Origin: a virus
DNA length: 30,448 nt
Virus record (IMG/VR): IMGVR_UViG_3300046006_004405
Coordinates: 1 to 30,448 of that record
Strand: one strand, 5' to 3'
The notes below the pieces were generated by a model. That model had not been told where the DNA came from, made no database searches, and saw nothing but the letters and a program-made list of their open reading frames with translations. This document shows, in pieces, positions 3,560 to 30,448 of this stretch (within the stretch, counting starts at the first letter, position 1; each line of letters starts with the position of its first letter). Both the position numbers and the translations under genes were made by a program.

Positions 3560-6500
3560 TTAGGAATGATACATGCAAATAACCATACAAAAGTTAAGAA
3601 TCAAGTAGTTACAACTACTACATATCCATCACTCCCTCTAATCAAAGAGGGGAGTGAATGGGTATTATATGGAGAAAGCACACAAGTACAAACTACTCCT
3701 AAGAATTTATTTAACTGGTCAACTATATTGTATAATGACCCAACTGTTAGAAGAGAAACTTATTTAGGAAGAGATTGTATTTCTTATATATCTGGTAATC
3801 AGACAACCAATCAAAAATGGTTAAAAGGACTTTTTAAGACTAATGTAAGATATACATTAAGTGGATATTTTTGTGTAGATATAGGCACAGGAATTGTAAT
3901 GAAATATACTGATGGCACTATTAAAGATGTTTGGATTAATGATACTAATGAAACTTTTGTATATAAAAAATTAACAAGTGATGTTGGGAAAACTGTTGAA
4001 TTGATAAAAGGTAATTGGAATAGTGGAGCAAGGGTTTATTTAGATATTAATACTATAATGGTAGAGGAAGGTATAGTAGATACAGCCTACACAGCCTACA
4101 CACCACCACTACCCTCGGCAAATGCTGAAAGTCCAATAATCAACACATACAAAAAAGGAACATATCAAAACACAATAGATGGTATTCCTTATCAATTTGA
4201 GTTAGATAATGACCTTTTGCAGTGTGGAACTTTCAAAGATAAGCTGACTATTAACACAGTGAATAAAACGATTAAAGTTGATAGGAATTGTATTCAACAA
4301 GTTTTAAAAGGTGATGCAAGTGATGGAACGTATGGAATTTATGACTTAAACAAAACCAACGTATTTTATTTAGCAAATAATGCTTTCAAGACAAACGTGC
4401 CTAATTCGACAATGTGCAATTATATGAAAAACATACCAAATAGCGAGGACACTTATAGCTATGATTGTCTTAGTGACCCTACACTGGCTATTTCTAAATT
4501 TTTCAACTTTGATAGTAGTACACTAGGAATAATTGCAAGTGACACAACAGATGTCTTAAAAATTACTAGATTAAAAACTTGGTTATCAGCAAGGTACACA
4601 TCATCAAGCCTAAACCCATTTACAATACAATATGCACTAGCAACACCTACCTCAACTACTAGGAGATTAACACCAGTAACAGTGCAAAGCGGAAGTAATG
4701 AGTTAGTTATAGAAAACACAGTAAATGCACCTATAGAGAGATTAGAAATAGATGGTGGAACTACACAAGTTGAAACAGTGCAAGGTGTGAATATATTTGA
4801 TAAGAATATAGTTAAAACAAATCTATTAGTTGATAATGGAAGAAATGTTGTAGATGTAGATATAACAAGCAAATCACTGTTAATATACAATGCCTTTGCT
4901 ACAAATACTCAATATACAATACAATTTTATTCAAGGAGAGTTGCTACTTATGGAGTATTAACAGCAACATTTTACTATACTGATGCAACATCAAGTACAG
5001 GAAACAGAATAGACGGAGTTGATGGATATACTCTAAAAACTATAACATCTACAGTTGGAAAGACTATTGATTATATAAAAATAACTAATGGTGGTAACGG
5101 TTCTGCTAATGGATATATTGACTTAAACACTGTTCAAATAGAGCAAAATACAGTAGCAACAGCATACACTCCATTCGTACCACCCTCACCAAGTCCATTA
5201 TATCCCTCAACATTAACAAGTGTAGGGCAAAGTGGAAGTTTTAATGTGATTAGTAAGTCTGCAAATTTAATTCAGAATGGTAATTTTGCTAATGGTGTTA
5301 GTGGGTGGAACTATTCAGATGGAACGGCAACTATAACTGCAAGTGATAATACATTATTTGTGACTGGCACAGGAACTCATAATAATAATTATTGTTACAG
5401 ACATATACCAGATTATCAAAATGGTCATAAATATTATTTTGTATCAACAATGAAAGTGACTAATTCCGATTGCATTCAGTTATATTACCATATAACATCT
5501 GGTTCGAATATAACAAATTGTATATACAATCCAGTTATTAATACACCTTATAGAATTTCAGCAATATCTATACCTAATAATTATAGTTATATTGTAATTA
5601 AAAGTAATTATGTCGATAGAGCAACAGCTACTGGTAAAGTGATGGAAGTGCAAAAAGTAATGGCTATAGATATGGGAAAAGATAGCAGTAACCCTTTATA
5701 CAATTTAACACAAACTCAAATGGATGCTAAATTTGTTAATTGGAGTGATTACAAACAAACTACTATTAACATTTTAGCAACACTTAGAAGTTTACCAGAC
5801 GGAACGAAAGATAGATTGGTGATAGATAAAGCTAGTCAGACTGCTTGGATTGAGAGAAATATAATACAAGAAAACTTAAACATAACAAATTTATACAGAA
5901 CAGGCACAGATATTATTAGATTTGAAGGACAAACTTCTTTAAAATGTGTTTATTCTTCATCTATGTATGGTTCACATTTTAAATTAATTACTACTAATTG
6001 GACTGGGGAATTAGAAGCTATATTCCATCATGGTAGTTATTTTAAGGAATATTACTGGTCAATTTATAAATCTACAATAGGGTGGTTATCAGGTGATACT
6101 AATCAGCAGATAATAGATAAAGGTAGAGCTTGGATAGCAAGTGAAGTATCAGCAGGCAGAACTCCTATTGTTATGGCTAAGTTATTGACACCAGTTATAG
6201 AGCCTATAGCATATCCAAACATAGCAACAATACAGCACTTGACAAATTTAAGCAAAGACGGAATAACAAGTAATATGAGCTTTGATGTGCTTATATTAGG
6301 TAGTAAAACTATAGTAAGAGATGGTTTAGTATTAAATGTTGATTTTAATAATATATACGGAAATAACTCAATAGGAGTTAATTCACCTTTGACTACAACT
6401 ATTAAAAACTTAGCAGACAATACTCCGTTAACTTTAAATGGGTTTGGTGGAACAACTGCAAGTGGATATACAGGAAATGGAACTGAATTAGACCCTTATT

Positions 6501-7513
6501 GTTTAGTTTTTGATGGAAGTAATGATTATATTAATTGTGGAAGTTCTAATGTTTTATCTTTGGCTTGTACTATATCAGTATGGGTGAAAATTACATCATA
6601 CACAGGGACATTTAGAAGAATTATTGATAAAAATAGAACTGAAGAATATTCTTTTGGGATAGGTTCAGATAATAAACTTTTATTTGCTTTCTCTAATATA
6701 GTACCTCAAACAGGGGCAACTGCTATTCCATTAAATATATGGACAATGATATCTGTAACATATGATGGAGCAAATATTAAATATTATATAAATAGTATAT
6801 TAGATAAAATTGTCCCTCAAACAGGTTTAATAGGTATAGGAACAAATTCATTAAATATAGGACTAGGTTCAGGAGTTTATTTTGGTGGATTAATCAGTAA
6901 TGGTATTATTTATAATAGAGCCTTATCTCAATCAGAAATAACACAAAATTATAATGTAGGATTAGCTTATAATCCAACTAATGAGTATAAAGCTAAAGGA
7001 CAATTATTAACTAATTTAATTACTAATGGTAATTTTGCTAATGGGACTACTGGGTGGACACCTTATGATATTAATTCATTTACAGCAAACAATTATATAG
7101 CCAAATATACACCTTATACTAGATATGGTGGGATTGTTGGAAATATTGCAAATTATACTAATTATAGAGGTCATAGATTATACTTCTTTGCGAATTATAA
7201 AACAGATAGCACTTTAAATATTTTAGTATTAAATGATGCCACTAATCAAATTGTAAGGTCACATTCAGGAAATAATACATTTATGAGATTATCAGGACTT
7301 ATGAATATATCATCAGTTGCCACAAATTTATTTATTAAAATTCAAGATGGTAGGGAAAGTGGGTGGACAGAAACACAGTGTACTAATTTTGGTGTTATAG
7401 ATATGGGAATAGATTTAACTAATCCTCTTTTTAATTTAACAGTAGCACAAATGGATACTTTATTATTAGATTATCCAGAATATTTCGAAGGCAACCATGT
7501 TAGTTTTGTGTAA
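3557..7513 (+). CDS. Large modular tail/receptor-binding protein with LamG-like domain
   Basis: Probably a baseplate or receptor-binding structural protein. The 1318 residues are modular. Segments at about 45-190 and 408-551 resemble each other, both ending in a TAYTPP/TAYTPF motif followed by a Pro/Ser stretch of the PSPxYPS type seen in phage minor structural proteins. Segments at about 571-735 and 1152-1318 are also paired: both open with NGNFANGxxGW and close with MGxDxxNPLxNLTxxQMD, like duplicated carbohydrate-binding beta-sandwiches. Between them, about 917-1135 has a LamG/concanavalin-like fold signature (GLVLNVDF, VFDGSNDYINCG, ISVWVK, SEITQNYNVG). The ATG overlaps the preceding stop; the SD is GAGGTGG at 3543-3549. 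A strong terminator follows the stop by about 60 bases, so this is the last gene of the structural operon. Sugar binding is inferred from fold resemblance. Confidence 0.75.
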   Translation: MLGMIHANNHTKVKNQVVTTTTYPSLPLIKEGSEWVLYGESTQVQTTPKNLFNWSTILYNDPTVRRETYLGRDCISYISGNQTTNQKWLKGLFKTNVRYTLSGYFCVDIGTGIVMKYTDGTIKDVWINDTNETFVYKKLTSDVGKTVELIKGNWNSGARVYLDINTIMVEEGIVDTAYTAYTPPLPSANAESPIINTYKKGTYQNTIDGIPYQFELDNDLLQCGTFKDKLTINTVNKTIKVDRNCIQQVLKGDASDGTYGIYDLNKTNVFYLANNAFKTNVPNSTMCNYMKNIPNSEDTYSYDCLSDPTLAISKFFNFDSSTLGIIASDTTDVLKITRLKTWLSARYTSSSLNPFTIQYALATPTSTTRRLTPVTVQSGSNELVIENTVNAPIERLEIDGGTTQVETVQGVNIFDKNIVKTNLLVDNGRNVVDVDITSKSLLIYNAFATNTQYTIQFYSRRVATYGVLTATFYYTDATSSTGNRIDGVDGYTLKTITSTVGKTIDYIKITNGGNGSANGYIDLNTVQIEQNTVATAYTPFVPPSPSPLYPSTLTSVGQSGSFNVISKSANLIQNGNFANGVSGWNYSDGTATITASDNTLFVTGTGTHNNNYCYRHIPDYQNGHKYYFVSTMKVTNSDCIQLYYHITSGSNITNCIYNPVINTPYRISAISIPNNYSYIVIKSNYVDRATATGKVMEVQKVMAIDMGKDSSNPLYNLTQTQMDAKFVNWSDYKQTTINILATLRSLPDGTKDRLVIDKASQTAWIERNIIQENLNITNLYRTGTDIIRFEGQTSLKCVYSSSMYGSHFKLITTNWTGELEAIFHHGSYFKEYYWSIYKSTIGWLSGDTNQQIIDKGRAWIASEVSAGRTPIVMAKLLTPVIEPIAYPNIATIQHLTNLSKDGITSNMSFDVLILGSKTIVRDGLVLNVDFNNIYGNNSIGVNSPLTTTIKNLADNTPLTLNGFGGTTASGYTGNGTELDPYCLVFDGSNDYINCGSSNVLSLACTISVWVKITSYTGTFRRIIDKNRTEEYSFGIGSDNKLLFAFSNIVPQTGATAIPLNIWTMISVTYDGANIKYYINSILDKIVPQTGLIGIGTNSLNIGLGSGVYFGGLISNGIIYNRALSQSEITQNYNVGLAYNPTNEYKAKGQLLTNLITNGNFANGTTGWTPYDINSFTANNYIAKYTPYTRYGGIVGNIANYTNYRGHRLYFFANYKTDSTLNILVLNDATNQIVRSHSGNNTFMRLSGLMNISSVATNLFIKIQDGRESGWTETQCTNFGVIDMGIDLTNPLFNLTVAQMDTLLLDYPEYFEGNHVSFV

Positions 7514-7981: not shown

Positions 7982-8010
7982 TTGACAAAACTTTAAAAGT
8001 ATGCTATACT
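7982..8010 (+). promoter_or_regulatory. Sigma-A promoter 1 of the replication operon
   Basis: TTGACA at 7982-7987, 17-base spacer, TATACT at 8005-8010, with TATGC just before the -10 (TRTGN motif). First of three promoters in tandem. Confidence 0.85.
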
Positions 8011-8073
8011 TAGTTTTGTAAAAGTCTAATATATATTATTTTTAAATTTTTCAAAATTATTTTTAAAAAAAAC

Positions 8074-8102
8074 TTGACAAATTTTAAAAAGTATGTTATA
8101 AT
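8074..8102 (+). promoter_or_regulatory. Sigma-A promoter 2 of the replication operon
   Basis: TTGACA at 8074-8079, 17-base spacer, TATAAT at 8097-8102, preceded by TATGT. Both hexamers are perfect consensus, with an A-tract upstream of the -35. Confidence 0.92.
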
Positions 8103-8166
8103 AGGGGTATCAATTAGAGACATATTATTGTTTGAAAATATTTTTTAATTATTTTTAAAAAAACTA

Positions 8167-8195
8167 TTGACAAATTTATTAATATGTGGTATAAT
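8167..8195 (+). promoter_or_regulatory. Sigma-A promoter 3 of the replication operon
   Basis: TTGACA at 8167-8172, 17-base spacer, TATAAT at 8190-8195, preceded by TGTGG. It is the promoter closest to the 8264 gene and leaves a leader of about 60 bases. Confidence 0.92.
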
Positions 8196-8263: not shown

Positions 8264-9301
8264 ATGGCAGAGAAAAAGAACAATCGTAAATTTAATTTAC
8301 CAGAAACAAAAGGCTCTTTTCAAATAAGAGGGGTTGTATCAGGTACAAAAAAACAAGACTTTTATGTTGAAACAGAAACAGCAACAACAAAGAAACCAAA
8401 AAGAACAGTTAATTTTGGTATTCAAACACATTCAGACTCTACAGTGTACATAAGAATGCAAGGGTTTACAAAAGATAATGTTTGTTTTTACAACAAAGAA
8501 ACAAAAACAAACAAAGCAGTTCCTTGGGAAAATAGATTAAAATTCAAAGAAAAAGATTTTAGTTTAATTGGTACAAATATTGGTTTAACAAAGAAAATTG
8601 ATGATAAAGGTACAGAAGTAAATGATAAAGTAACATTACCTGAATTTGATGATTGTAAGTATGTTTCTGAACATTTGCAAGATGGTCAATCTTTGTTTGT
8701 AAAAGGTGCTTTGGAATTTAGTAGTTTTACAAAAAATGACACAATGACTAGATATATTAATTATAAACCTAATCAAATATCTCTTTGCAAACCAGTTGAT
8801 TTTGAAAGTGAAGATTTTACTCCATTAAGTGATTTTGAACAAACAATAGTTTTCTTGGAAGCAACTTTAGATACTACAGATAAAGATGATCAAAAAGGTA
8901 TAATTAAAACTAAAATTGTAACATATCAAGCAATTGAAGATGTTGAGTTTATTGTTAGAGACAAAAAACTATTTTCAGATATGAAGAAAAATTTAAAACC
9001 ATATGATGGAATTGATGTTTCAGGACATATTGTAAATAAAGTTATTGTTGAAGAAACAACTGATGCAGATTTATGGGGAGAACCAACTTCATTTGATGAA
9101 GTTAAGAAAACGTACATAAGAGAAATGGTTATTACCAGTGCAAAACCAGGAAGTATTGCAACACATAAAGACAAATATTCTGAAGAAAAAATTAATGAAG
9201 CATTAAGAGCATTAAGAGAATTTGGTGAAACAAAATCAGAAACTGATGATAGTGCTTGGGGAGCAGATACTGCTGATAAAGATGATGCAGGTTGGGAATA
9301 G
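8264..9301 (+). CDS. Possible single-stranded DNA-binding protein (SSB analogue)
   Basis: First gene of the replication operon, 345 residues, start supported by GAGG at about 8250. I do not recognise a family with certainty. Residues about 15-190 are beta-rich with OB-fold-like alternation (SFQIRGVVSG, KRTVNFGIQTH, VYIRMQGF, SLFVKGALEF). A second beta-rich segment at about 205-295 repeats the pattern (GIDVSGHIVNKVIVEE). The C-terminus from about residue 318 is strongly acidic and ends DDAGWE, reminiscent of the acidic partner-binding tip of SSB proteins. The next gene is a Sak4-like ATPase, a family that normally works with an SSB. Together these suggest an ssDNA-binding protein made in large amounts from three strong promoters. 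Alternative: a recombination mediator or other structural ssDNA-associated protein. Confidence 0.5.
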   Translation: MAEKKNNRKFNLPETKGSFQIRGVVSGTKKQDFYVETETATTKKPKRTVNFGIQTHSDSTVYIRMQGFTKDNVCFYNKETKTNKAVPWENRLKFKEKDFSLIGTNIGLTKKIDDKGTEVNDKVTLPEFDDCKYVSEHLQDGQSLFVKGALEFSSFTKNDTMTRYINYKPNQISLCKPVDFESEDFTPLSDFEQTIVFLEATLDTTDKDDQKGIIKTKIVTYQAIEDVEFIVRDKKLFSDMKKNLKPYDGIDVSGHIVNKVIVEETTDADLWGEPTSFDEVKKTYIREMVITSAKPGSIATHKDKYSEEKINEALRALREFGETKSETDDSAWGADTADKDDAGWE

Positions 9302-9334
9302 TTTTAAATAAAGTAAGAAAGGAAATATAAAAAC

Positions 9335-10522
9335 ATGGCAAGAGCAAGAAGTGGTAGTGACATAGCTAAGAGTTTAAAGATGTTTGTATATGGTCAACAA
9401 GGTACATATAAATCAACTTTAGCATTAGATACTATGAGATTAAAGACAGTAGATGGTAATCCTTTTAAGGTATTATATTTAGACTGTGAAACAGGTTCAG
9501 TTGATTTTTACATATCAGATTTAGAACAAGAGGGAATAAATCCTCAAAATCTATATATTATTTATTCATCTTCTTATAATGAAATAGAGTATTATGCTAA
9601 TAAATTTATTAAGAATGAAACTTTTTACACATTAGATGAAGATGGTAATGAAACTGATGAAGAAGTATTAGATGCTGATGGTTTGTCAATTAAGTTTGAT
9701 GCAATAGTTATTGACGGTATTACTGTTTTGGCAGATAATATAAATGAGGCTGCATTAAATGTTTCTGAAAAAAGAGCAAAAGTTAGAGCAGATATTAAGA
9801 AAAAAACTTCTGATGAAACATTTGTAGATGTTCAAACAGCAGGATTAGAGTTTAAAGATCATACAAAAATTAAATCAAAAGGGAAAAGCTTAATTAGAAA
9901 ACTTGTTACAGGAACTGATAAATGTGTTGTTATTACTGGTAGAGACAAAGCACAAAAAGTAATGAAATCAACAAAAAGTGGTGATATGCAATTAGTTGAC
10001 ACTGGAATGAGAATTGCTGAATCTTGGGATTTTATTAACTTTGAAGTATTTACTGTAATTCATATGTATTCAGATAATGAAACAGGTGAAGTATATGGTA
10101 TAATTGAATTAAAAGATAGAACTGGTACTTATCTTCCAAATTCAAAACTAAAAGTAAATGGAACTTATGATAGACCATCTTTATTAGATTGGCAACATGT
10201 TATAACTGAAAATAAAGGCAAACAAAAATTTGATATAAAAGAAGATGTTAGTAAATCAATGTCAAATAATGAAAAAGCTTATGAACAAATAGCAAATGAT
10301 AAATCAGTAACTTTTGATGGTAGTAACAATAAAGAAGAACCAAAAGAAGATTCAGTTGAATCTTTAAAAGAACAAATTAAAACTGAAAGAACTCAAATTC
10401 CTAAACATAAGTTACCAACTGTTCAAGCAGCAATAAAGGCAGAAAAAATTCCACTGAGTGTTGCAGAGATTGAAGATATTGAGGTATTAAAAAAATATTT
10501 AGAAATAATTAAAAACACATAA
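9335..10522 (+). CDS. Sak4-like RecA-fold ATPase (AAA_24 type)
   Basis: P-loop ATPase of the phage Sak4/RecA-like group, which promotes single-strand annealing and recombination during phage replication. Walker A is GQQGTYKST at residues 20-28, a LDCETG segment follows at 49-54, and Walker B is AIVID at 123-127. The core ends near residue 290. The remaining C-terminal part is Glu/Lys-rich and probably a flexible tail with a short helical end (residues 345-395). At 395 residues it is longer than minimal Sak4 proteins because of that tail. It lies 33 bases after the putative ssDNA-binding gene, with a good SD (AGAAAGGAA), and ahead of helicase and primase genes, which fits a recombination-dependent replication role. 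The substrate is inferred from family and context. Confidence 0.75.
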   Translation: MARARSGSDIAKSLKMFVYGQQGTYKSTLALDTMRLKTVDGNPFKVLYLDCETGSVDFYISDLEQEGINPQNLYIIYSSSYNEIEYYANKFIKNETFYTLDEDGNETDEEVLDADGLSIKFDAIVIDGITVLADNINEAALNVSEKRAKVRADIKKKTSDETFVDVQTAGLEFKDHTKIKSKGKSLIRKLVTGTDKCVVITGRDKAQKVMKSTKSGDMQLVDTGMRIAESWDFINFEVFTVIHMYSDNETGEVYGIIELKDRTGTYLPNSKLKVNGTYDRPSLLDWQHVITENKGKQKFDIKEDVSKSMSNNEKAYEQIANDKSVTFDGSNNKEEPKEDSVESLKEQIKTERTQIPKHKLPTVQAAIKAEKIPLSVAEIEDIEVLKKYLEIIKNT

Positions 10523-24896: not shown

Positions 24897-26657
24897 ATGA
24901 GTTTAAAATTATCTACATATCAGGAAGACATTATAGATGCCTTCAAATACTCAAGTGAAAATCTATATATAAGAGCACTTGCAGGTTGTGGAAAAACATT
25001 CATGCTTTTAGAGTTAGCAAAATTAATAGAAGATTATTCTGTTTTTTTAGCATTTAATAAAAGTATTCAATTAGAAATTCAAGGAAAAATTGATAATCCA
25101 AAAATGAAAACATATACTTTTAATGGATTAGGATATTTAATAATGTTGAAAAACTGTGAGAATAAAAAAATAGAAATTAAAAACTTTAAAACATTTTCTA
25201 TTGTTCATCAAGTTCTAAGTAAATATTTTGATAGTAGAGTTGTTAAACCTGAAGTTTTAGTAAAGACAAAAGAAAATGTGATTGCATTATATGAATTATG
25301 CAAAACAAGATTTTGTGATTTAAAAAATGAAGAAGAAATACAAGATGTAATTTCTTTATATGAATTATTTTCAGATGTATCAATTCCAAGTAATTTATTA
25401 AATATATTGGCTGAGGTTGATATTGAAAATTTTAAACAATTTGAGAAAAGTGGAATTATTAATTTTAGTGATCAATTATATATTACTTTAAAAAAGATTA
25501 TGAGCAAAGAATGGCAAGTTCCTGGTTACTTGTTGTTTCAAAACATATTAACTGATGAAGCACAAGATTTATCAAAAGTACAACAATTATTATTATTTTT
25601 TATAGGAAGAAAAAATGCAAGAAGGATTTTTGTTTTAGATGAATGGCAAAGTATTTATGGATTCTCGGGTTCTGATACACGTTCATTTCAAACAATAAAA
25701 TCAATGTTTAAACCAAAAGAACTTGAACTTCCTATTAATTATAGATGTCCAAGTTTACATTTAGAATATATTAATAAATTATATGATATTGGAATTCAAG
25801 CAAGACAAGATGCTCCAGAAGGAAATATTTATAACATTAATGTTAGTGAATTAATCCAAAAAGCTCAAATAGGAGATTATATTATTGCTAGGAAAAACAA
25901 AGATCTTTGTGAAATTATATTATCATTAATAAAAGTAGGGAAACCTATTTATTTAAAAGATGTTGAATTAGTAAAGAAAATAATTAAAATTATTGAGGGT
26001 GCAAAAACTACATCAGTAGCAGGATTATCAAGACATTTAGAAAAAACAAGATTAAAACATGAAAATGAACTTAAAAAACAATATGCTGAAATGCATAAAA
26101 CAGGAATTGTAAATGAAGAAAAGATTAATAATAATACAGTTAGTAATGCTAATATGGATATTTTTGAATGTGTTGAAATTTTATTAGAGAATTACAAAAA
26201 GGAAAACAAAGGTTTAAATATTGACAATTTTGTTAATTATATTAATAGGATGTTAAATACAACAAACTCAAAAGATTCAATTTTATGTTCTAGTGTACAT
26301 CAAGTAAAGGGTCTTGAAGCAAATAATGTGTTTGTATTAGGTGAAGCAAGAGTTTATTATGAATTAGCCAGAACATCTGATCAAATTCAACAAGAGAAAA
26401 ACTTATCATATATTTCTCTATCAAGAGCAAGAGAAAATTTGTACTTAGTAAAAATAAAAGATAAAAAGAAAAATAATGATGATGATTTTGATGAAGAAGA
26501 TTATTTTGACACTAGTGGATCAACTTCAACAAAAATACAAAAAGGTGAAAACTCACCTAATAGGGAATACTTAATTAAGTCATTAGACAAAAATGATTCT
26601 GATGATTGGGATGATATAATTCCAAATAACCCAATTTGTTGTAAAGATGATATGTGA
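24897..26657 (+). CDS. UvrD/Rep-like superfamily 1A DNA helicase
   Basis: A 3'-5' DNA helicase of the UvrD/Rep/PcrA superfamily. Q-motif-like TYQEDIIDA starts at residue 7; Walker A is AGCGKT at 29-34; motif II is LTDEAQDLS at 218-226; motif III DEWQSIYGFSGSD at 248-260; motif IV NYRCPS at 281-286; motif V SSVHQVKGLEANNVFV at 465-480; motif VI SYISLSRARENLY at 504-516. It is complete but compact (586 residues against about 700 for UvrD), with a shortened 1B/2B insertion region (about 90-190 and 330-460) and an acidic C-terminal tail after 520. The start has SD AGAGGA. As first gene of its own unit it is probably expressed with the early set. Role in repair, fork restart or recombination is inferred. 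Confidence 0.9.
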   Translation: MSLKLSTYQEDIIDAFKYSSENLYIRALAGCGKTFMLLELAKLIEDYSVFLAFNKSIQLEIQGKIDNPKMKTYTFNGLGYLIMLKNCENKKIEIKNFKTFSIVHQVLSKYFDSRVVKPEVLVKTKENVIALYELCKTRFCDLKNEEEIQDVISLYELFSDVSIPSNLLNILAEVDIENFKQFEKSGIINFSDQLYITLKKIMSKEWQVPGYLLFQNILTDEAQDLSKVQQLLLFFIGRKNARRIFVLDEWQSIYGFSGSDTRSFQTIKSMFKPKELELPINYRCPSLHLEYINKLYDIGIQARQDAPEGNIYNINVSELIQKAQIGDYIIARKNKDLCEIILSLIKVGKPIYLKDVELVKKIIKIIEGAKTTSVAGLSRHLEKTRLKHENELKKQYAEMHKTGIVNEEKINNNTVSNANMDIFECVEILLENYKKENKGLNIDNFVNYINRMLNTTNSKDSILCSSVHQVKGLEANNVFVLGEARVYYELARTSDQIQQEKNLSYISLSRARENLYLVKIKDKKKNNDDDFDEEDYFDTSGSTSTKIQKGENSPNREYLIKSLDKNDSDDWDDIIPNNPICCKDDM

Positions 26658-26688
26658 AAAATAAAATAATTTTGATTAGGAGAAAACT

Positions 26689-26937
26689 ATGAAAAAGAAT
26701 AACCAAAAAAAGAAACTTCAAGAATCAAAAGGATGTAAAACTAATTGCATTTATTTTCCTACTATAACTTCATCAGTTCATTATATTATAGATGAAAATG
26801 GAGTTAAGAAAAGAGAAAAAACTTTTCAATATATATGTAGTTATGATAATCATATTATTAAAAATTGGGAAAATCAATGCCCAAGATATTTAGTTGGGAA
26901 AGAACCTATTTTATCAGATAATAAGGAGAAAAATTAA
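26689..26937 (+). CDS. Small Cys-containing protein, unknown function
   Basis: An 82-residue protein with a clear SD (AGGAG), lying 31 bases after the helicase gene and overlapping the next gene by one base (TAATG). Four Cys residues (C16, C20, C50, C64) could bind one zinc ion; the spacing CKTNC then CSYD then CPRY is unlike common zinc fingers. The N-terminus is strongly basic (KKNNQKKKLQESKGCK), suggesting nucleic acid contact. No family is recognised. Confidence 0.65.
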   Translation: MKKNNQKKKLQESKGCKTNCIYFPTITSSVHYIIDENGVKKREKTFQYICSYDNHIIKNWENQCPRYLVGKEPILSDNKEKN

Positions 26938-27476
26938 TGATAGTATTAATTGGTGCTAGTGGTACTGGTAAATCAACTGTAGAGAAAATATTTGTAGAAA
27001 AAGGTTATAATAAAATAATATCATATACAACAAGGGTAATTAGATTTGGAGAAATAAATGGAGTTGACTATCATTTTGTAAGTGTAGAAGAATTTTTATT
27101 ACTTGATAAAAATAATATGTTAGTAGAAAAAGTTTGCTATGATGATAATTATTATGGAATACATAAAGAAGATTGCTTAGATAATTCTGTAGTAGTTGTT
27201 GAACCAAATGGATTTTCTCAATTACAGTCAGTAAAAGGATTAAATATAAAGTCTTTATATATTTATGCAGATGAAAATATAAAAGCAATTAGGATGCTGA
27301 AAAGAGGAAATTCATTAGAAGAAGTGTATAAAAGAATAATTTTAGACAGAGATGTTTTTTCTAATAATATAGATATTTTAGCTAAATCTACTTTTAATAT
27401 AAATAACAATTTAGATTATGATTCTTTGGTTAAACAAGTTGATTTTTTTATTGAACTTTATTTAATGTATAGATAA
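26937..27476 (+). CDS. gmk: Guanylate kinase-like P-loop protein
   Basis: Resembles guanylate kinase, which converts GMP to GDP for nucleotide supply. The P-loop is GASGTGKS at 6-13, the SYTTR motif at 29-33 is the GMP-binding signature, and a GVDYHFVSVEEF stretch at about 41-52 matches the YxFVS.eeF motif of the family. At 179 residues it is slightly shorter than cellular enzymes (about 200), and the C-terminal lid region is divergent (ERR-type arginines replaced by MLKRGNSLEEVYKRI). It may therefore have shifted specificity toward another nucleotide or be a deoxynucleotide kinase. SD AAGGAG; the start shares an A with the previous stop. It is the last gene of this unit. Confidence 0.82.
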   Translation: MIVLIGASGTGKSTVEKIFVEKGYNKIISYTTRVIRFGEINGVDYHFVSVEEFLLLDKNNMLVEKVCYDDNYYGIHKEDCLDNSVVVVEPNGFSQLQSVKGLNIKSLYIYADENIKAIRMLKRGNSLEEVYKRIILDRDVFSNNIDILAKSTFNINNNLDYDSLVKQVDFFIELYLMYR

Positions 27477-27504
27477 AAAAAATAATTTATTTTCATAAAA
27501 ACTA

Positions 27505-27533
27505 TTGACAAATAATTGAAAATGTGTTATAAT
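27505..27533 (+). promoter_or_regulatory. Sigma-A promoter for the tRNA and RNA-repair unit
   Basis: TTGACA at 27505-27510, 17-base spacer, TATAAT at 27528-27533, TGTGT before the -10, and ACTATTGACAAA. Transcription would start near 27540, so the first codon must lie downstream of that. Confidence 0.92.
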
Positions 27534-27569
27534 AGCAAATATAAAATAATTAATAAAGGAATGAACAAT

Positions 27570-27824
27570 ATGGATATTGCACTTTGTAAAAATAATAATT
27601 GCCCTAAAAGTAAAATATGTTTAAGATATATGGGAGAACCAATTGCTGGAATTACAAGCTATATAGTTTTTAAATCAATCTGTAAAGAGAAAAATAATTT
27701 TGAATGGTTTGTAAAAATTAAAGAAACAGACAAAGTTAGAGTTGAAGAAATAGAAAAAGAAGAAGTAATAGAGCAAATACAAAAACCAGTAGTTGAAGAA
27801 AAACCAGAAGAACAAGTTAAATAA
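27570..27824 (+). CDS. Small Cys-rich protein, possible zinc binder
   Basis: An 84-residue protein with C6, C11, C17 and C38 (CKNNNCPKSKICLRY then SICKEK), a pattern seen in small phage zinc-binding proteins. The C-terminal third is highly acidic with Val/Glu/Lys repeats (EEIEKEEVIEQIQKP) and probably unfolded. The start is set at the ATG at 27570: AAAGGA ends nine bases before it, while the in-frame ATG at 27516 lies upstream of the promoter -10 and cannot be translated from that transcript; the ATG at 27561 directly abuts the SD. First gene of the unit that carries the tRNA and the RNA ligase. Function unknown. Confidence 0.65.
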   Translation: MDIALCKNNNCPKSKICLRYMGEPIAGITSYIVFKSICKEKNNFEWFVKIKETDKVRVEEIEKEEVIEQIQKPVVEEKPEEQVK

Positions 27825-27854
27825 TAACTTAATAAAGAAGACCAATTCTAAACT

Positions 27855-28015
27855 GTTCTAAATGTCTATAAACTTTCAGAACTGAGTAAGATAGTGGAAT
27901 GGCAATTGTAACCACATAAAAAACTTATTTTATTGCCAGCTATATGTAAAGCTAGTCTTGAACTAGTAGCCATGCATTTGGCGTAAGAGTGCCTACTTTT
28001 TGTAGGTCTCTTATT
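27855..28015 (+). ncRNA. Candidate structured non-coding RNA upstream of tRNA-Cys
   Basis: A non-coding stretch with many nearby inverted repeats. They are GTTCT 27855-27859 with AGAAC 27878-27882; GGCAAT 27901-27906 with ATTGCC 27932-27937; CTAGT 27952-27956 with ACTAG 27962-27966; GCCA 27969-27972 with TGGC 27979-27982; and TAAGAG-T-GCCTAC 27984-27996 with GTAGGT-CTCTTA 28002-28013. A longer pairing, AGTAAGA 27885-27891 with TCTTATT 28009-28015, would enclose most of them and competes with the last hairpin. The D-arm-like GTGGAATGGCA near 27894 recalls tRNA-Leu, but no T-loop or CCA end exists, so it is not a normal tRNA. It ends three bases before tRNA-Cys. It could be a phage ncRNA, a processing leader or a decayed tRNA. 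Confidence 0.4.
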
Positions 28016-28018
28016 TAA

Positions 28019-28096
28019 GCAAGTATTCATAGTTGGTCTCTATGGGTAGGTCTGCAACACCTACTAATGTCAGTTCAAATCTGACTGCTTGCTCCA
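28019..28096 (+). tRNA. tRNA-Cys (GCA)
   Basis: Full cloverleaf with encoded CCA. Acceptor GCAAGTA pairs with TGCTTGC (one G-T pair); D-stem CATA/TATG with loop GTTGGTCTC; anticodon loop CTGCAAC with anticodon GCA; T-stem GTCAG/CTGAC with loop TTCAAAT; discriminator T, then CCA. The variable loop has five bases. There is one extra base between D-stem and anticodon stem, which lets the anticodon stem extend to six pairs (GTAGGT/ACCTAC). It lies inside the transcription unit of the RNA ligase. Confidence 0.88.
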
Positions 28097-28133
28097 AAAT
28101 AAGATTAATTTTATTGTGAAAGGAATTGAATAT

Positions 28134-28469
28134 ATGACAGCTTATCAAGTTATTTTATATGACATAGACACTAAATATACAATTGCTACTTATTTAAACC
28201 AATTAAAAGCAATTGAACATTTAAATACACTTTTAAAAGAACAACAAGATGAATTGGATCAATCTATAAAATGTTACCATTGTCCAATTCATAAATTATC
28301 AAAAAGGAAATATAAAAAAAATAAAAACAAAATATTTGATTATTGTAAAAATATTAGAGAGCAAGATTTTGAATTTCAAGGCAATAATATATTTTGTAAT
28401 GTAGTTCAAAATGATCTATATCTAGAAGACAACATATATCAAATACAAGAAATAGAAATAATAGAATAA
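28134..28469 (+). CDS. Small Cys/His protein, unknown function
   Basis: A 111-residue protein. The ATG at 28134 is chosen because AAAGGA (28119-28124) precedes it by nine bases; upstream in-frame codons run into the tRNA. It has C47-x2-C50-x2-H53 (CYHCPIHK) with C71 downstream, a likely zinc site, inside a very basic stretch (KLSKRKYKKNKNK at about 54-66). The N-terminal 45 residues look like a small alpha/beta domain, and the C-terminus is acidic. No family is recognised. Placement between tRNA-Cys and RNA ligase could mean an RNA-related job, but nothing shows it directly. Confidence 0.62.
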   Translation: MTAYQVILYDIDTKYTIATYLNQLKAIEHLNTLLKEQQDELDQSIKCYHCPIHKLSKRKYKKNKNKIFDYCKNIREQDFEFQGNNIFCNVVQNDLYLEDNIYQIQEIEIIE

Positions 28470-28483
28470 GGAGAATAAAGCAA

Positions 28484-29809
28484 ATGGCTTATTGTGCTTA
28501 CATAGTTAAAATAAAAGAATTAAGACAACATTCTAATGCAGATAGACTTCAAGTAGCTACTGTATTTGGCAATAATGTAATTGTTAGTTTGGAAACAAAA
28601 ATAGATGATATGATGTGTTATTTTCCAACTGATGGAAGATTAAATGTAGAGTATTGTAGAAAAAATAAACTACTTAGAGAGAAAGATGCTAATGGAAATA
28701 ATATTGGTGGTTATATGGATGAATCTAAGTGTAATGTAACTACAATAAAACTTAGGGGGGAGAAATCAGATGGTCTCTTATTATCTATATCAAGTTTATC
28801 TGAGTTTACTAAAGTAGAAGATTTAAAAGAAGGGGATACTATTTCAGTCTTAAATGGAATTGTAATTTGTGAAAAGTATATTCCAAGAGGTAGTAGAAAT
28901 CATAGAACAACTACTTCTTCTAAAGAGAAAAGAAAAAAGAAAGATAATAAAATATCTTTTCCATTTTTTTCAGAGCATAGTGATACGACCCAGTGGGCAT
29001 ATAATAAGCATCAGTTTAAATATGGTGATATTTGTTATATAACTCTTAAAATGCATGGTACATCTGCTAGAACATCACTATCTTTAAAAGAAGAAAGAAA
29101 AATATTACCATATTGGATACATAATATTTTAAAGAATTTTAAATTTAAACTTAAGTCAAAAACATCTTGGGATTATGTATCTGGCACAAGAAGAGTTGTT
29201 CTTAGTGATTATCAAGGTGGATATTATGGCAATGATGAATTTAGAAAGAAATGGCATGACTTTTTTGTTGGAAAATTAAAAAAAGGCGAGGAAGCTTATT
29301 ATGAAATTTTAGGATATATTAGTGAAGATAAAACAATAATGCCAGAATGTAGTAATGCTAAAACAAAAGATAAAGAGTTTATAAAAAAATGGGGAGATAC
29401 TACAAGATTTACATATGGTTGTGAAGTAGGACAAAATGATATTTATGTATATAGAATGACTATGACAAATGAAGATGGTGATGTAGTTGAATACCCAACT
29501 GAGTTAGTTAAATTAAGATGTGAACAAATGGGAGTAAAGTTTGTTCCAATTTTTGATAAGTTTATTTTTACTACAATTGAGGACTTAGAAGAAAGAGTAG
29601 AAAAGTTTGTAGATGGAGAAGATCCAATTGGTAAAACTCACATAAAAGAGGGAATCGTAATTCGAGTTGACAATAAAGAAAAATTTACAGCTTTCAAACA
29701 CAAAAACACAGATTTTAAAATCTTAGAAGGCATTATAAAAACACAAGATAATGTTTTGGACATAGAAGAAGAACAAGATATAATTAAGGAAGAAGAATTA
29801 CAATGTTAA
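28484..29809 (+). CDS. RNA ligase (Rnl5 / DraRnl-like) with N-terminal OB domain
   Basis: ATP-dependent polynucleotide ligase that seals broken RNA. The nucleotidyltransferase motif I is KMHGTS at 189-194 (Lys189 is the AMP-accepting lysine), motif III AYYEILGY at 271-278, motif IV EGIVIR at 389-394 and motif V FKHK at 404-407. The first 130 residues form an OB-like domain (AYIVKIKELRQHSNADRLQVATVFGN) with a KLRGEKSDGLLL stretch at 89-100, as in the Deinococcus radiodurans RNA ligase group (Rnl5). A basic linker (KEKRKKKDNK) joins the domains. Length 441 is longer than Deinococcus Rnl. SD AAGGAG is clear. The next gene, a polynucleotide-kinase-like protein, starts seven bases inside this one, so ligase and kinase are co-translated. 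The likely task is repair of cleaved tRNA or other RNA. Family placement is from memory of motifs. Confidence 0.85.
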   Translation: MAYCAYIVKIKELRQHSNADRLQVATVFGNNVIVSLETKIDDMMCYFPTDGRLNVEYCRKNKLLREKDANGNNIGGYMDESKCNVTTIKLRGEKSDGLLLSISSLSEFTKVEDLKEGDTISVLNGIVICEKYIPRGSRNHRTTTSSKEKRKKKDNKISFPFFSEHSDTTQWAYNKHQFKYGDICYITLKMHGTSARTSLSLKEERKILPYWIHNILKNFKFKLKSKTSWDYVSGTRRVVLSDYQGGYYGNDEFRKKWHDFFVGKLKKGEEAYYEILGYISEDKTIMPECSNAKTKDKEFIKKWGDTTRFTYGCEVGQNDIYVYRMTMTNEDGDVVEYPTELVKLRCEQMGVKFVPIFDKFIFTTIEDLEERVEKFVDGEDPIGKTHIKEGIVIRVDNKEKFTAFKHKNTDFKILEGIIKTQDNVLDIEEEQDIIKEEELQC

Positions 29810-30448
29810 AATTTATTTGTTTGGTAGGAATATCAGGAAGTGGCAAAAGTACAATTGCAGAAAAGCTAAAAAAAGAAGAAGAAGAAAAAGGCAATAAAAT
29901 AGTCATTTTATCTAGTGATACCCTGAGAGCTCAAATATTGGGGGATATCAATGACCAAACACAAAACAGTATGATATTCCAAGAACTACATAAAAGAACT
30001 CTACAGAGCCTTTTGAATGGTGTGAGTGTGGTGTACGATGCCACATCAATTAATATAAAAGATCGAAAGTCTATTTTAGATAAAATTAAAAATGTGGATT
30101 GTTATAAGGTTGCTTATGTAATGACTTGTTCATATCAAATGTGCAAAACTCAAAATCAAAGTAGAGATAGAGTAGTTCCAGATTTTGTATTAGAAAAACA
30201 ATTAAGAAAATTTCAAATCCCTATAAAATATGAAGGGTTTGATGAAATTGTTTTAGACAAGTGGAATGACTTTTCAAATTGTACTAGTGAAAATTTATTT
30301 CCTATTATACAAAAAATGATTGGGTTTAATCAAAGAACTAAATGGCACAAGCATAGTTTATTAGACCATTGTTTAGCTACTTATGAAGAAATAAAAAAAG
30401 GAACAACTAATAAACCTTTACTTGTGGCAGCAATAATACATGATTATC
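29803..30448 (+). CDS. Polynucleotide kinase-like P-loop domain fused to an HD domain (3' partial)
   Basis: An end-healing enzyme candidate, cut by the right edge after 215 codons. The start is the ATG at 29803, which overlaps the RNA ligase gene. The P-loop is GISGSGKST at 9-17; a SSDTLRAQ segment and DATSIN follow, and RDRVVPDF supplies lid arginines, the pattern of AAA_33/polynucleotide kinases that phosphorylate 5'-OH ends. From about residue 178 an HD-type domain begins (WHKHSLLDHCLATYEE) and the HD dyad itself (IIHDY) is the last thing visible. Related HD-Pnk enzymes carry a 2',3'-phosphatase HD domain, but in those the HD part comes first; here the kinase is N-terminal. Together with the ligase gene this makes a healing-and-sealing pair. 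Confidence 0.8.
   Translation, partial: MLKFICLVGISGSGKSTIAEKLKKEEEEKGNKIVILSSDTLRAQILGDINDQTQNSMIFQELHKRTLQSLLNGVSVVYDATSINIKDRKSILDKIKNVDCYKVAYVMTCSYQMCKTQNQSRDRVVPDFVLEKQLRKFQIPIKYEGFDEIVLDKWNDFSNCTSENLFPIIQKMIGFNQRTKWHKHSLLDHCLATYEEIKKGTTNKPLLVAAIIHDY

Follow-up and report, generated by a model that had tools for sequence, protein, structure and literature searches.

RNA repair by phages, HD-type phosphatases included, has already been published, and the operon described here, at the right end of a viral record of 30,448 bases and 26.6% GC (IMGVR_UViG_3300046006_004405, the whole of which is hereafter called the window), is a variant of it. Large phages have been described with an RNA repair toolkit that includes RlaP, proposed to restore lost nucleotides, CCA-adding enzymes and tRNAs, and in which HD-like phosphatases are a rare choice (PMC7824862). 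The same components recur here: a ligase, a polynucleotide kinase fused to an HD domain and a tRNA lie in the window, and RlaP and a CCA-adding enzyme lie on contig L005 (IMGVR_UViG_3300046006_004189), which appears to continue it.

Four described systems come close to this locus. First, phage T4 combines a 5'-kinase/2',3'-phosphatase fusion (Pnkp) with an RNA ligase (Rnl1), a combination predicted here as well, with the kinase ahead of the phosphatase in both fusions, and likewise expected to mend RNA after cleavage by a host nuclease. Unlike in T4, the predicted phosphatase is of the HD and not the HAD (DxDxT) type, the ligase is Rnl5-like, with OB and nucleotidyltransferase domains, and not Rnl1, and the two genes are adjacent and overlapping. 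Second, the HD-Pnk proteins (Deinococcus DRB0098, Runella, phage RM378, the Campylobacter phage proteins labelled 'poly A polymerase', PHROG 6931) have the same two modules and catalytic residues, but in the reverse order, the kinase preceding the HD domain in the window (kinase-HD hereafter, as opposed to HD-kinase). Third, Rnl5 ligases (D. radiodurans DRB0094, Naegleria gruberi Rnl) share the N-terminal OB domain, the C-terminal nucleotidyltransferase domain and the KxHG form of motif I; the window ligase differs from them by its length (441 versus about 340 amino acids), a score below the TIGR02306 cut-off and a kinase-HD partner immediately downstream. Finally, the bacterial Pnkp/Hen1/Rnl complex is similar in its kinase, the kinase module of the window being closest by profile to Pnkp of C. 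thermocellum. The phosphatase of that complex is calcineurin-like, and no Hen1 methyltransferase was found at the window operon.

Sequence comparison makes it probable, in our view, that ligase and kinase-HD protein constitute a heal-and-seal RNA repair unit of the phage, likely reversing the cleavage of tRNA or other RNA by host defences. Its operon structure, its domains with intact catalytic residues and its conserved gene linkage can be read from the sequences themselves; the activities, the substrate and the biological role we infer by analogy with T4 Pnkp/Rnl1 and HD-Pnk. The N-terminal P-loop kinase would phosphorylate the 5'-OH of broken RNA, the C-terminal HD domain would strip a 2',3'-cyclic, 2'- or 3'-phosphate to leave a 3'-OH, and the Rnl5-like ligase, after self-adenylylation on Lys189, would seal the 3'-OH to the 5'-phosphate. 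Metal-independent ribonucleases, anticodon nucleases among them, leave ends of this kind, hence the likely role against host defence. RNA, preferred over DNA, would be the main substrate and tRNA the presumed target. The co-transcribed tRNA-Cys could supply a replacement tRNA, the structured RNA beside it may also take part, and the RlaP and CCA-adding enzymes encoded on L005 could restore lost nucleotides.

The first-pass annotation, made from the window alone, had proposed an RNA-repair operon in which the kinase gene overlaps the ligase gene and is fused to an HD domain. The overlap amounts to 7 nucleotides, and the window ends inside the HD doublet, reading 'IIHDY'. Scanning viral contigs with the truncated protein retrieved L005, which overlaps the last 129 bases of the window with 127 identities, the first 126 bases being unchanged and two of the final three differing, probably through a contig-end error; the two overlap as adjacent contigs from a single assembly would. 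The first open reading frame (ORF) of L005 completes the HD domain ('IIHDFGK...SHE...NYHM...ECDK', stop at 410), and the motifs that might have been missing beyond position 30448 are thus present. The joined protein comprises 308 amino acids and aligns end to end with 20 phage proteins. Throughout these 21 sequences (alignment A3) the kinase retains its P-loop, D39, R42 and R121, the latter three being equivalents of T4 Pnkp Asp35, Arg38 and Arg126, and the HD domain retains H182, H189, H213-D214, H234, H267 and D301; the sole exceptions are Ser16 replaced by Thr twice and R42 by Gly once. Because of the diversity within A3, the genome scan was run with alignment A4. The family profile matches the C. 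thermocellum Pnkp kinase (9e-23) and T4 Pnkp (2e-11), and its second half matches the HD region of poly(A) polymerase (1e-11). Pfam HD (PF01966) is above its cut-off in four relatives and below it in the window protein. L017, at 44% identity, is the closest full-length relative; among solved structures, its AlphaFold model (predicted local distance difference test score, pLDDT, 90) has its best Foldseek matches in the C. thermocellum Pnkp kinase.

The ligase was also recognized correctly at first reading, both in its complete motifs and in its Rnl5-like character. Motif I reads KMHG, with Lys189 as the predicted nucleophile, and the nucleotidyltransferase residues K189, H191, G192, E274, E389, K405 and K407 are invariant in an alignment of eight phages. 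Nearly its full length matches PHROG 968, 'RNA ligase' (1e-70). Its match to the DRB0094 equivalog model TIGR02306 (1e-10) reaches 40.7 bits against a cut-off of 151.15, and the protein is therefore called Rnl5-like and not an equivalog. Pfam PF21189 and PF09414 both remain sub-threshold, and no relatives came up when viral contigs were scanned with the single ligase protein. It is by way of the OB domain that the ligase family profile matches the RNA ligase of N. gruberi (5e-7). Foldseek with the AlphaFold model gives Naegleria Rnl for all of the top 13 matches, then T4 Rnl2, and at lower ranks tRNA-binding OB domains; as the model reaches a pLDDT of only 61, this result was weighed only together with the sequence profile.

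Conserved linkage of the two genes strengthens the RNA-repair reading further. About 20 phages as well as 17 Bacillota contigs contain full-length kinase-HD relatives, and an RNA ligase lies within about 1.6 kb of the kinase-HD gene in 20 of the 21 distinct viral loci; in the one viral locus with no ligase nearby, the kinase-HD gene starts at the contig edge. The ligase is Rnl5-like or of the OB plus nucleotidyltransferase form in the window, BcoS-136, LC76P1, L019, L022, L032 and L035, and Rnl1-type in the remaining viral loci, including phage G (gp265). Among the Bacillota genome contigs, 15 of 17 have an adjoining RNA ligase, again within 1.6 kb, which is Rnl1-type in five, Rnl5-like in one and a PF09414-type protein of 210-218 amino acids in nine. 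In a repair pathway, a fixed end-healing enzyme with interchangeable ligases is to be expected, and a role in DNA metabolism hardly accounts for this pattern. We therefore see here a coherent family of predicted RNA end-healing enzymes, almost always partnered by an RNA ligase of one of three types, whose HD part is predicted to have phosphatase activity and to prefer RNA. Members in cultured phages carry no annotation beyond 'polynucleotide kinase', 'ATPase' or 'hypothetical'. With this pair, Bacillota phages would gain a counterpart of the tRNA repair pair of T4, which, if true, would help explain how such phages survive RNA-cutting defences.

Several loci show further features around the pair. 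RlaP (PF10127) lies between ligase and kinase-HD gene in LC76P1. L005 encodes an RlaP nucleotidyltransferase (6031-7083), a NADAR-domain protein (PF08719; 7096-7629) and a CCA-adding enzyme (9060-10127). Bacillus phage PJN02 has a homing endonuclease gene (L006:3274-3996) inserted between RNA ligase and kinase-HD gene. An Rnl1-type ligase beside a kinase-HD gene is split over two ORFs (L021:4939-5997), which is a frameshift or an assembly error. The nine contigs with the small ligase (L051-L059) are chromosomal, from Lysinibacillus, Brevibacillus and Aneurinibacillus, and have the kinase-HD gene followed by the ligase gene, possibly a host RNA repair operon.

The main rival to RNA repair rests on the Deinococcus precedent and assigns the unit to DNA ends: the kinase-HD protein would heal breaks with 5'-OH and 3'-phosphate termini, and a DNA ligase, or the OB plus nucleotidyltransferase ligase itself, would seal DNA or mixed duplexes. 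HD-Pnk of D. radiodurans is tied to DNA damage resistance, a paper title cited in PMC9146567 naming it in support of resistance to radiation and mitomycin C, DRB0098 phosphorylates DNA 5'-OH ends (PMC1997131), and in BcoS-136 a gene for a DNA ligase lies a few kb from the pair. Set against this, 35 of 38 loci have a linked RNA ligase (Rnl1, Rnl5-like or PF09414), several of them also contain RlaP, whose name comes from an RNA repair pathway, and the nearest fold to the window ligase is that of a nick-sealing RNA ligase, with an OB domain resembling tRNA-binding ones. We consider DNA repair unlikely. In addition to the Deinococcus findings, the following observations weigh against repair of RNA by the unit. 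HD domains also perform other hydrolytic chemistry, and the joined kinase-HD protein is assembled from two contigs. Two bacterial loci (L049 and L060) have no adjacent ligase, and the L060 homologue (5004-5939, Clostridium mediterraneense) has a degenerate kinase P-loop (GLPCKEKDD). Finally, relatives keep neither the tRNA-Cys nor the structured RNA beside the ligase/kinase-HD pair, which makes the link of these two to repair circumstantial. The HD domain of the L060 homologue is above the Pfam cut-off.

The module order noted at first reading as opposite to that of known HD-Pnk proteins is indeed so. Kinase precedes HD in the joined window/L005 protein and in the 20 aligned phage relatives, and the Rhodothermus phage RM378 protein shows the reverse (HD 13-157, kinase 188-337), as does DRB0098 of D. 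radiodurans (PMC1997131); the same paper cites 3'-phosphatase activity for the HD-type Pnkp of RM378. With swapped modules, PHROG 6931, to which the RM378 protein belongs, should match the window protein in two separate stretches, and it does. HD-kinase proteins of the RM378 type are also present in Campylobacter phages, and together these group as a separate clade in the kinase tree as well as in the HD tree; the HD domain of phage G falls near CCA enzymes with low support. The trees are compatible with a single origin as well as with a permutation of the HD-kinase arrangement, and with either order having come first. Phage HD-kinase proteins annotated as 'poly A polymerase' are found at L015:48060-49145 and in Campylobacter phages (e.g., L070:3992-5053), a label that is probably a misannotation caused by the HD domain. 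What is probably new is the reversed order, together with the exchangeable ligase partner. A search of open literature on HD-Pnk turned up almost nothing. If confirmed, the reversed-order pair would allow a comparison of how HD-Pnk enzymes are built. One could go further and see in kinase-HD a separate, independently fused class of RNA end-healing enzymes that switches among the three RNA ligase types and that, in this phage, acts together with the three-hairpin RNA and the tRNA-Cys of the same transcript, for instance as decoy or sensor for a host nuclease cutting tRNA-Cys; we find this combination quite unlikely.

Table 1. Elements of the predicted repair operon (positions in the window unless a contig is named).
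Feature	Position	Strand	Basis or remark
Sigma-70 type promoter, TTGACA-17-TATAAT, extended -10 (TGTGTTATAAT)	27505..27533	+	member of phage-wide promoter set
84-amino-acid Cys-rich small protein	27570..27824	+	ORF; Pfam matches sub-threshold only
Folded non-coding RNA segment immediately 5' of tRNA, with three stem-loops in a row	27900..28014	+	folding z-score
tRNA-Cys, anticodon GCA, CCA encoded, discriminator U73	28019..28096	+	ARAGORN; Rfam RF00005
111-amino-acid Cys/His small protein	28134..28469	+	ORF
Predicted ATP-dependent RNA ligase, N-terminal OB plus nucleotidyltransferase, Rnl5-like, PHROG 968	28484..29809	+	profiles, model, motifs
Predicted 5'-OH polynucleotide kinase with C-terminal HD phosphohydrolase domain	29803..30448	+	cut by window end; completed by L005:3-410

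Upstream of the pair, the elements that the first-pass annotation had listed, namely one promoter, two small Cys-rich or Cys/His ORFs, a structured segment and a tRNA-Cys, were all recovered (Table 1), and in the order 84-amino-acid ORF, folded segment, tRNA-Cys(GCA), 111-amino-acid ORF, ligase gene and kinase gene behind the promoter. Neither small ORF has a phage homologue at E 0.1. The tRNA-Cys scores 43.1 bits against RF00005 (cut-off 29) and has no intron according to ARAGORN; U73 and the GCA anticodon are main identity elements for cysteinyl-tRNA synthetase. Its anticodon loop (window 28052-28058) reads CTGCAAC, with C at position 38, and anticodon-loop changes have been proposed to evade nucleases (PMC10264068). 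Folding of the preceding segment is significant against shuffled sequence (z = -4.7 over the 120 nucleotides 27900-28019; z = -2.5 over 27825-28015), and flanking windows that leave the segment out have z near 0, so that the signal is confined to about 27900-28019. The segment matches no Rfam family, and at relaxed E the only match besides the tRNA is an opposite-strand one at chance level; neither blastn in phages nor a search of viral contigs for an exact 20-base pattern turned up a relative. The segment could serve as a processed leader or as a regulatory element, or it may be a small RNA unrelated to the rest.

The shared transcript of folded RNA, tRNA-Cys and enzymes would also fit a unit that processes the phage's own RNA, by maturing the tRNA-Cys or structured RNA or by controlling phage mRNA, with no part in countering host attack. 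However, most relatives with the pair have no adjacent tRNA, the structured RNA has no relative in the phages and viral contigs searched and the tRNA-Cys has no intron to remove, and we judge this explanation very unlikely. A tRNA-model search of ten records (window, L005 and eight with the gene pair) found 1-32 tRNAs in eight of them, mostly far from the repair genes, the related phages having their clusters elsewhere. This distribution favours, for the tRNA alone, a role in codon compensation for a phage of such low GC content, its placement being accidental; Cys makes up 1.4% of residues window-wide and 2.3-4.8% in the operon products, which points the same way. We give this possibility nearly an even chance. 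It is compatible with the repair function of the enzymes and speaks only against the tRNA and the enzymes acting jointly.

That the operon is one transcription unit was also borne out. A TG precedes the -10 hexamer of its promoter, which is the sole 12/12 match within 26400-30448. The extended motif TTGACA-N12-TGTGTTATAAT has seven window copies at ≤3 mismatches, compared with 0.84 in shuffles, which indicates a promoter class of the phage, and this phage-wide motif marks starts of transcription units. An exact copy lies at L005:447-475, downstream of the operon and 36 bases past the kinase-HD stop, so that one and the same promoter motif stands at either end of the repair transcription unit. 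Within the window, tail genes lie at the left, and a replication block with a DnaB-type helicase, a primase, a DNA polymerase and two further helicases lies to their right. The motif TTGACAAAT...TGTGTTATAAT was found at window positions 7982, 8074, 8167, 15776, 24835 and 27505 and at L005:447 and 4025, three of the copies standing in tandem at 7982-8195.

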